Program-made: the position numbers and the translations under genes
Notes under the pieces: model-generated
What the model saw: only the letters and a program-made list of their open reading frames with translations
What the model was told of the DNA's origin: nothing
Database searches by the model: none
Shown here: piece by piece, positions 50,890 to 52,853 of the stretch
Position numbering within the stretch: the first letter of the stretch is position 1
How the letters are laid out: every line of letters starts with the position of its first letter
NCBI GenBank assembly: GCA_017935675.1
Contig: JAGBHE010000008.1
Location: 51,087 to 115,086, forward strand
Origin: Clostridia bacterium
GTDB lineage: Bacteria; Bacillota; Clostridia; UBA1381
Reading direction: 5' to 3'
Length of the DNA stretch: 64,000 bases

Positions 50890-51324
50890 TCAGCCGCTTT
50901 TTTTATATACCCTGACCTTATGAGGCGGAAGGTCAAGCGCAGCCTGTACAGCCTCGGAAAGCGCGTTTTTAATATTCGGATTATCTGCCCCATCGGCAGT
51001 CACAACAGCCCCCTTTGCTTTTTTTGTATCCTCCTTGCTTCTTTCGGATTCATAATACGTTATCATGACTGATACCTTACCCGCACCCTTTATATCCGAC
51101 AATACGCTGCAAAGCCTTTCTTCCTCGGAAATACCGGATTTTTTTACACTGCTGCGTCCCGTCTGAGGCATCGTCATAAATAGTACTCCAATAATTAATA
51201 TTACAAGAAAAAGCTGTTTATTCTTTAAATTAAAAACATTTTCTATTTCCGGAATGAAATTTTTTGCGGAGAATAGATTTCGTTTAGTCTTTGCCGGATC
51301 CGCTCTGCTTGTTTTTCCGTCCAT
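50890..51324 (-). CDS. spoIIIAG: Stage III sporulation protein AG
   Basis: The 144-aa protein has a basic N-terminus, one TM helix (about 38-54) and a ring-building domain (about 68-140; GAGKVSVMITYYESERS). It is shorter than the B. subtilis form (229 aa) by loss of insertions. SpoIIIAG forms the large ring of the A-Q channel. GGAGG 10 nt before the ATG. Its start overlaps the spoIIIAF 3' end by 82 nt in another frame. Confidence 0.95.
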   Translation of the reverse strand: MDGKTSRADPAKTKRNLFSAKNFIPEIENVFNLKNKQLFLVILIIGVLFMTMPQTGRSSVKKSGISEEERLCSVLSDIKGAGKVSVMITYYESERSKEDTKKAKGAVVTADGADNPNIKNALSEAVQAALDLPPHKVRVYKKSG

Positions 51325-51680
51325 ACCGTTATTTCCTCCACACCTTCAATTTCATAATTCTCATTTACCTTAAGCTTTACGCTGACCTTGGCTGTAATGC
51401 CGAATTCAGCTGAAAGCTTTTCCGCAGCATCCTGTGCAACCCTTTTTTCAAGCTCTTCCCTGACAGCTGTTTTCTGGGCGTTTTCATCTATGGCATCACT
51501 GTATTCATATCCGGAAAACAAATCAATGCCGCGAAGTGCAGCAACCGGCGAAATAATAACACTTATAATCATTATTCCGGTCACGGCCTTCACATATTTC
51601 CGCCATTTATCCGGAGACAGCATAAGCGCTATGGCTGAAAGTACCGCACTTCCTATAACGGTTATCATATAATCGTTCAT
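51243..51680 (-). CDS. spoIIIAF: Stage III sporulation protein AF
   Basis: 145 aa from ATG 51680 with GGAGG 6 nt upstream. Two TM helices (about 5-22 and 32-52), then a soluble domain with EEITVWTEKQAERIRQRLNE. Order in the operon fixes its identity, since AF is poorly conserved. The C-terminal 27 codons overlap spoIIIAG. A GCCGCCT/AGGCGGC hairpin (51694-51709) lies just before its ribosome site. Confidence 0.92.
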   Translation of the reverse strand: MNDYMITVIGSAVLSAIALMLSPDKWRKYVKAVTGIMIISVIISPVAALRGIDLFSGYEYSDAIDENAQKTAVREELEKRVAQDAAEKLSAEFGITAKVSVKLKVNENYEIEGVEEITVWTEKQAERIRQRLNEIYSPQKISFRK

Positions 51681-51717
51681 ATTAATCCTCCATGCCGCCT
51701 TTAGGCGGCTCAAATCC

Positions 51718-51825
51718 ATAACGTGGAAAAGAAGCAAGCAGATTGCCTTCTTGAGGGACGACGGCGTATGTTGATACTCCGAGTCCCGAAAGGAGGTAAG
51801 ATGCGCCGCTTATTTTTCACGTTAT
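51718..51825. ncRNA. 108-bp structured element between spoIIIAE and spoIIIAF
   Basis: Long-range arms ATAACGTGGAAAA (51718-51730) and TTTTTCACGTTAT (51813-51825) enclose a bulged GAAGCAA/TTGCCTTC hairpin (51731-51750) and a stable GGGAC...GTCCC hairpin (51755-51787), which holds GG/CC and GTAT/ATAC with a 4-nt loop. A single-stranded-looking segment follows: plus strand GAAAGGAGGT, minus strand ACCTCCTTTC, the latter equal to the anti-Shine-Dalgarno of 16S rRNA. The strand of transcription is not known. Spliced between two genes of an operon that are usually close together. Structure is seen in the sequence; function is inferred. Confidence 0.6.
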
Positions 51826-52853
51826 CCGCCTCCCGTTGCGGCAAGGATAATGCTTATACATATTATAAACAAAACCGCCGTGGTTGCAACCATGCCGAAA
51901 AGAATAGTTATCGAATTGCTTATATCGGAAAGAAGTCCGGATATCCGCTTGTCCGTTATAGGTTCAATCACCGCCGAGGATATTCTGACCACCAATGCCA
52001 TTACGCCTATTTTGATTACAGGTACTGCGCAGATAGTGCATAAAACCACCAATCCGGCACTGCCCACCGTATTTTTCATCATACGTCCGCCGCTTATAAC
52101 CGTCTCAAGGGTATCCGACAAAAAATTACCGACCACCGGCACAAGACTTCCCACTGCAAACTTCACGGTTTTTGCACTCACCACATCAAGAGCGGGAGCC
52201 GTAAATCCATATATGCCGCATATTCCGGTAAACAAGGTGAAGGACAGCGCAAGAATCCACTTCGACACGGATGAAATAAGCCGGCAGGTACCGGAAATCT
52301 GCACCTGATCGCTTATATTGTTGGCAATTGACAGCACAGTTGAATACGAGGCAAGGGGTATTATGCATTTATGGCATATTATGCTGACTGCATAAACCGC
52401 TGCCGACAGCACGGGGTGAAAGGCTCCCGCGCTTACCGTGCTGCCGGAAGTTATAAGAAGCGTTGCCAGCACAGGTGAAAGCTTCGTTATGAAATCCGTC
52501 ATATCACCCATAACCGTTGTAGCATAGTCAAGGCATACAGAAAAGCATTTTACCGCCGTTGATGCAGCAATTGTATAGCAAGCGAAAAAGGATATTTCGG
52601 TTATCCTTGACTTGAAGTCCTGTCCAAGCAGATTAACAACAGAGGTAAGCGCTCCGAGGCAAAAGAATATCACAAGATAATATGTCAGCTCGTGTAGCTC
52701 ACCTGTAAGAAGATCTATAAGCTTTTCCGCCAATGCAACCGGCGAAAGGGAAAAGCCGCCGTTTGTCATGGCGTCAAAGGTCTCTTGAAAAAGCGGCTCG
52801 TCCGGGATATACTCTCCGGCTGCCATCATGCTACAGCATACTGATAGCATCAA
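51822..52853 (-). CDS. spoIIIAE: Stage III sporulation protein AE
   Basis: The 343-aa polytopic membrane protein with about seven to eight TM segments is the largest membrane part of the SpoIIIA complex, with transporter-like helices. The start is TTG 52853 or ATG 52850 with GGAGG upstream, overlapping spoIIIAD by 23 nt. The end GVMALVVRISSAVIEPITDKRI is typical of AE. The stop codon is the first base of the structured element. Confidence 0.96.
   Translation of the reverse strand: MMLSVCCSMMAAGEYIPDEPLFQETFDAMTNGGFSLSPVALAEKLIDLLTGELHELTYYLVIFFCLGALTSVVNLLGQDFKSRITEISFFACYTIAASTAVKCFSVCLDYATTVMGDMTDFITKLSPVLATLLITSGSTVSAGAFHPVLSAAVYAVSIICHKCIIPLASYSTVLSIANNISDQVQISGTCRLISSVSKWILALSFTLFTGICGIYGFTAPALDVVSAKTVKFAVGSLVPVVGNFLSDTLETVISGGRMMKNTVGSAGLVVLCTICAVPVIKIGVMALVVRISSAVIEPITDKRISGLLSDISNSITILFGMVATTAVLFIICISIILAATGGG

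Follow-up and report, generated by a model that had tools for sequence, protein, structure and literature searches.

The stretch of DNA analysed here (the window, 64,000 nucleotides) carries spoIIIAE (51822..52853) and spoIIIAF (51243..51680) on the minus strand, and Pfam confirms both of these assignments from the first-pass annotation (Spore_III_AE, 3.1e-84; Spore_III_AF, 5.8e-10). Between the presumed Shine-Dalgarno sequence (SD) and the start codon of spoIIIAF lies a 140 bp repeat element (51683..51822, minus strand; ACGTG...GGATTA in gene sense), whose boundaries were set by comparison with its other copies in the same genome. The order along the operon strand is the end of spoIIIAE with GGGAGGCGGA, TA, ACGTGAAAAATAAGC...GCTTCTTTTCCACGT-TA-TGGATTTGAGCCGCCTAAAGGCGGCATGGAGGATTA, AT, and the spoIIIAF ATG, and the last base of the spoIIIAE TAA stop is the first base of the element. 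The left flank contains a GGGAGG within the end of spoIIIAE (51829..51834, minus strand), presumably the native SD of spoIIIAF, with a duplex energy of -11.1 kcal/mol with the 16S tail. The element has its own SD, a GGAGG conserved at the right end of copies (51687..51691, minus strand), which now precedes spoIIIAF, and the ATG of that gene (51678..51680, minus strand) is 2 nt past the element's right end. The alignment of SpoIIIAF to its same-genus orthologue begins at residue 1.

A long hairpin of 106 bp with TA at both tips (51719..51824), predicted by folding and by covariation among copies, has 13 bp arms (TAACGTGGAAAA... and ...TTTTTCACGTTA; 51719-51731 and 51812-51824), one TA (51823..51824) being at the left junction, where it is also found in the left flank of empty sites, while a further TA ends the element (51683-51684). 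One arm of the hairpin includes an anti-SD-like segment, ACCTCCTTTC (51788..51797, minus strand; GAAAGGAGGT on the plus strand), and a 36-codon frame, predicted to be translated, runs from a GTG at the element's left end to a TGA (VKNKRRILPPFGTRSINIRRRPSRRQSACFFSTLWI; 51710..51820, minus strand). The arms, the anti-SD-like segment and a small tail hairpin, GCCGCC-TAAA-GGCGGC (plus strand GCCGCC-TTTA-GGCGGC; 51694..51709, minus strand), are all located where the first-pass annotation placed them. The tail hairpin had been described as abutting the spoIIIAF start; it is found in most family-1 copies (see below) and, judged by that comparison, is like the GGAGG a part of the repeat unit and not of spoIIIAF. 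Twelve of the 14 contexts listed for the AE-AF junction of relatives (plus orientation) are short and lack the element. The other two are a distant cousin of the element at the same junction in another genus (L142; G014:C8:71662-71752; model E 9e-13) and a different insert with a CCTCCCTTGTCAAAGGGAGG palindrome behind spoIIIAE (L143, G019).

The structure at spoIIIAF is one of about 50 dispersed copies and not an RNA peculiar to spoIIIA, so the suggestion of a spoIIIA regulator is replaced by that of a dispersed repeat. Its left-end pattern occurs at 52 places in its own genome and a reversed control pattern at 0. A search of this genome with a 116-base query returned at least 43 matches, and a search with a family-2 query also returned at least 43, at least 28 of them at 83% identity or more; both are lower bounds, with 40 of 60 or 81 candidates scored. 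Family 1, with a length of 140 bp, includes 15 further copies, which match most of the 116-base query at 95-98% identity, plus partial ones, and family 2, of about 137 bp, accounts for 25 or so matches at 77-82% identity to this query. The spoIIIAF element itself is 92-98% identical to copies in its own genome over 137-140 bases, and 95-98% over the hairpin. With about 50 copies, this is a dispersed, short, non-coding element with inverted ends, as expected of a MITE.

Similar DNA is present in 33 of 61 genomes sampled from the GTDB family (own genome counted). An exact-pattern scan of GTDB representatives matched 49 stretches, from genomes including Candidatus Ornithomonoglobus, UBA6363, SUG1652, SUG1612, E0_DP bin142, CO.O96 bin 268, and S36M_St_31, and a covariance model applied with stricter filters matched 13 of the 196 genomes sampled from the class; 6 of these belong to the own family, and several of the matches are weak. 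The genomes are MAGs, and many copies are at contig ends. The exact-pattern scan of viral contigs gave no match and the phage and plasmid searches found nothing, so a phage or plasmid element was dropped as an identity. Some copies have altered forms. Three (L302:8267, L305:679, L306:659) are 51-75 bp long with an internal deletion, retain both ends, and are still located between an SD and a start codon. L100 (S36M_St_31), and also L083, L087, L081, L097, and L103, have tandem arrays of up to 4 copies with a period of 111. Two copies (L017/L018, G000:C20:98119-98234; L059/L060, G000:C27:88450-88618) are split near the hairpin loop by other inserts, which hold a CAGTGGGGG..CCCCCACTG-type hairpin and look like a second repeat family.

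The position of the copies relative to genes is nearly invariant in the own genome. The right end is exactly 2 nt before an ATG, GTG, or TTG that opens an ORF of 50 codons or more in 40 of the 43 copies for which this could be determined (for one of the 40, what follows is not a gene but the GTG of a tandem copy), as compared to 1.1% of random positions in the same loci. One of the remaining right ends is at 3 nt and two are not at a start, with an ATG overlapping the pattern in both. Left flanks contain an SD, defined as a 16S-tail duplex energy of -5 or below, in 45 of 49 copies against a background of 20% (p 4e-22; the position table has 53 rows, and three antisense readings of the palindrome are excluded from this count), and the median energy over all 52 rows is -9.4, with a background median of -2.3. 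One left end with 2 mismatches (C6:140187, L337) has no row in this table. The element's right end is an SD and its left end is 2 nt followed by NTG; the distance to the upstream SD varies between copies, whereas that to the start codon is constant. The element's own SD is GGAGG at 6 nt from the start in family 1 and AAAGGAG, farther off, in family 2. T precedes AACGTG in 19 of 19 family-1 rows, and family-2 left flanks mostly end in AA.

Counts from other genomes indicate that the start-codon rule is valid across genera but looser than in the own genome. A left-flank energy of -5 kcal/mol is reached in 20 of 42 cases in S36M_St_31, in 5 of 8 in bin 268, and in 18 of 27 in G008, G010, G051, G059, and G060 pooled. 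Of 27 right ends in S36M_St_31, 21 have TG at +4,+5, and in 17 of them an ORF of 30 codons or more starts there. For the family-1-like set from other genomes there is TG at +4,+5 in 23 of 31 raw rows and an ORF start in 22, numbers that reflect a loose right-end pattern; by eye the second rows of L069, L071, L080, L091, and L115, and also L117, are not element ends, the first row of L069 is offset by 2 nt, and several misses are pattern errors. Some copies in other genomes precede an ATG without an SD (L318, L323, L327, L331).

Comparisons with closely related genomes provide sites that lack the element. In G006, which belongs to the same genus (120 of about 130 contigs compared, 6 of these only over 20 kb), the element is absent from the 47 nt upstream of the orthologous gene starts in all nine alignments listed (37 queries), and in six of these nine the orthologue aligns from residue 1, indicating that the starts are native. 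G008 and CO.O96 bin 268 (G028) are 98-100% identical at many loci. At site A, G008:C15 contains CAACGAAAGGTAAAGATTA|AAATGTCATTTTC, and two bin-268 contigs whose flanks are 99-100% identical to it end in the element, as CAACGAAAGGTAAAGATTA|ACGTG.. and ..GGAGATTA|AAATGTCATTTTC; we infer that these two contigs adjoin each other. At site B the empty sequence is AAAAGATA|ATATGAAGTGTTAA (G008:C87) and the occupied one, available for the left side only, is AAAAGATA|ACGTG.. in bin 268. Site C, at 87-89% identity, is GAGGGGTA|AATAAATATATGAG in G008:C17 and GAAGGGTA|element|ATTTGAAACATGAG in bin 268. Occupied alleles are split at TA|NNNTG at all three sites, and neither site B nor site C is a true gene start (ATG-AAG-TGT-TAA at one, and a TTG with a stop after five codons at the other), such that recognition of a DNA motif is preferred over recognition of a ribosome, and the motif probably suffices for insertion. 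There are 488 TA|NNNTG sites in the window and just 31 of these (6.4%) combine an SD with an ORF of 50 codons downstream, suggesting that the motif is supplemented by TIR-like context or by selection. Empty sites have one TA and occupied alleles have TA at both junctions, and because the target and the element's own end are both TA, a target duplication is not provable. L112 and L099 were dropped as an empty/occupied pair, as the alignment matches the L099 element to the second copy in L112. L068 and L313/L093 represent the same occupied site in near-identical genomes, with left junctions that differ in two bases (GAGAATGTA versus GAGAATA).

Folding of 51680-51850 gives z-scores of -8.0 for the plus strand and -4.7 for the minus strand, with none of 200 shuffles as good on either, in keeping with the structured element proposed initially. 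Homologues and covariation, which had been set as a test of that proposal, were both found: beyond the roughly 50 copies and the 33 family genomes, in a set of 35 diverse copies, 19 of 27 consensus pairs have undergone changes on both sides in one copy or more. Folding is better for the strand opposite to the gene in 31 of the 35, with a mean gain of 6.5 kcal/mol, and two neighbouring pairs are U-G or G-U in 15 and 18 copies and would be A-C on the gene strand. An RNA transcribed from the plus strand, one of the options in the first-pass annotation, agrees with the better folding of that strand, but not as an RNA specific to spoIIIA, since the repeat is dispersed. The conserved part on the strand opposite the gene is AAGCAAGCAGATTGC...GATGCGCCGCTTAT, and ACCTCCTTTC is in a freely varying arm. 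The strand bias would fit if the opposite strand had a single-stranded form, either DNA or RNA, of the kind known from HUH-type elements. Rfam covariance models gave no match at the gathering threshold in the window and, within 51600-51900, no match with an E of 1 or lower, so CsfG and raiA, which had been brought up as candidates, are unmatched and a known Rfam RNA was set aside as the identity.

The genes behind the copies include those for enolase (this copy lacks its left flank at a contig end), RbfA, DprA, RibBA, a biotin-synthase-like radical SAM protein, transporters, and hydrolases, and 20 of the proteins belong to unrelated Pfam families with no common function. With housekeeping genes such as those for enolase, rbfA, dprA, and ribBA behind it, the element must be compatible with translation, which presumably survives the insertion. 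Predicted accessibilities for 20 copies are about equal with and without the element, at 0.43 and 0.50 for the SD and 0.49 and 0.46 for the start codon; the spoIIIAF start codon counts against neutrality, with 0.07-0.13 with the element and 0.21-0.30 without. Leader frames are 14 codons long in family 2 and 36 in family 1, and the variation in length and in stops between the families rules out a conserved leader peptide.

We conclude, with a probability of about 0.85, that this hairpin repeat of about 140 bp and about 50 copies is a non-autonomous, MITE-like mobile element, predicted to have inserted between the SD and the start codon of spoIIIAF, whose translation would be kept by the SD at the element's right end. 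The bacterial MITEs RUP, ERIC, and Correia/NEMIS, as presented in the relevant parts of PMC2229807 and PMC3049150, are likewise under 200 bp, non-coding, hairpin-forming, dispersed, and found within operons, and family 1 shares with MITEs the TA at its tips. The element differs in having no proven target duplication and no related transposon found, in inserting precisely 2 nt before start codons, and in carrying its own SD at one end; no target of this kind is described in the passages of these two papers that list MITE properties. ERIC, for which an effect on mRNA processing is reported there (PMC2229807/PMC3049150), is similarly a hairpin repeat transcribed inside enterobacterial operons, and an influence of this sort is conceivable for the present element too, but ERIC has a different sequence and host and is not fixed to start codons. 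A search of open-access PMC full text, with subscription literature outside its scope, returned no paper on an element inserting between an SD and a start codon.

No mobilising enzyme was found among Y1 transposase and IS110 profiles in the 61 genomes. IS110 (PF02371), a bridge RNA system, is present in 18 of the 61 and was rejected as the obvious helper because it is missing from ten copy-rich genomes (G009, G010, G011, G015, G023, G028, G030, G047, G051, and G060). IS630/Tc1 seems a less likely helper, as family-2 flanks are AA and not TA. Each of the left ends traced among the 52 is that of a full, deleted, or interrupted copy; a transposon sharing these ends was not encountered.

It is possible, although we think it unlikely, that a Y1 HUH transposase moves the element, which would then be a non-autonomous single-strand element of the IS200/IS605 or REP type. 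Structure is found preferentially on one strand, the element is hairpin-tipped with no provable target duplication, and the opposite-strand target CANNN| is similar to the CACGT| or CAAAC| of the right cleavage; IS200/IS605-derived elements and REP/REPIN, in the portions of PMC6006769 that describe them, similarly combine one-strand structure with a short motif common to end and target. Three Y1 genes, including a RAYT-like one, are present in the own genome. However, target conservation beyond CA is weak, the hairpin is single and longer, no GTAG-type foot is seen, and Y1 genes are not correlated with copies: Y1 (PF01797) occurs in 33 of the 61 genomes and is absent from the copy-rich G011, G012 (98% complete), G015, G023, G030, G047, and G060, an absence whose weight is limited by MAG incompleteness, and it was thus rejected as the obvious helper. 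There are four element copies, full or deleted, within 12 kb of the RAYT-like gene (L302:1699-2442; G000:C3:88198-88941).

Random insertion followed by selection, in which only insertions between SD and start survive, is rather improbable. Insertions inside genes would indeed be purged and the element does supply an SD, but the constant 2-nt offset is unexplained since 1-5 nt should work too, and although 53 of the 488 TA|NNNTG sites in the window are outside of long ORFs, the copies of this genome are nearly all at starts. We regard as more doubtful still a cis-acting regulatory leader of a regulon, riboswitch- or attenuator-like and retained at starts for regulation. The fixed position before start codons and the conserved, covarying structure are what such a leader would show; nonetheless, the 92-98% identity between copies extends to loops and tails, the downstream genes share no function, the element is absent from the nine same-genus orthologues listed, and the gene strand is the worse-folding one in most copies. 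Translation-guided insertion, with the element's RNA joining an mRNA at the initiating ribosome and returning to DNA by reverse transcription, would account for the constant start-codon distance with a variable SD distance and for the use of GTG and TTG starts, but is very improbable given that sites B and C match NNNTG without being true gene starts. The anti-SD switch or SD-mimic small RNA of the first-pass annotation is barely credible: ACCTCCTTTC, which matches the 16S tail, and the strong plus-strand fold are in its favour, but the segment is confined to one sequence family, with other letters at this place in other families, its predicted probability of pairing with the spoIIIAF GGAGG in the spoIIIA mRNA is about 0.0004 per base, and Rfam offers no match.

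Returning to the MITE-like mobile element, we suppose that the substrate is the hairpin formed when the strand opposite the gene is single-stranded, and that the enzyme recognising it connects the two ends of the element to TA|NNNTG sites in family 1 and to AA|NNNTG sites in family 2. In a hypothetical circle junction, ..GGAGGATTA|ACGTG.., the joined ends would themselves constitute such a site, SD-spacer-TA-NNNTG, which a bacterial translation start (SD, spacer, NTG) resembles. Recombination at a start would leave SD-NTG at both junctions, and with SD-spacer-NTG restored on both sides the insertion would be nearly neutral for translation, permitting accumulation even before housekeeping genes. 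The native SD would then drive the short leader frame within the element (36 codons at spoIIIAF), and the element's SD would drive the gene. A broader and more tentative proposal, which we hold to be somewhat less probable than its negation, is that this element family uses the translation start as its attachment site, its joined ends being a full initiation region, and that a putative recombination system inserts it into SD-NTG junctions, leaving two working starts and a portable 5′ leader for any gene, even a housekeeping one.

Where genomes are compact, one expects to find mobile DNA in dispensable genes or in the gaps between genes. This repeat would instead target the position at which a gene is most vulnerable, 2 nt ahead of its start, and would be harmless because its ends rebuild what was split. 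If this is true, about 50 identical 5′ leaders are present in one genome of a Clostridia family, and many mRNAs carry in addition a short frame driven by an SD and a long RNase-III-like hairpin; automatic annotation of start sites and small RNAs would be misled, and the element would offer a compact system for insertion at a motif a few bases long.
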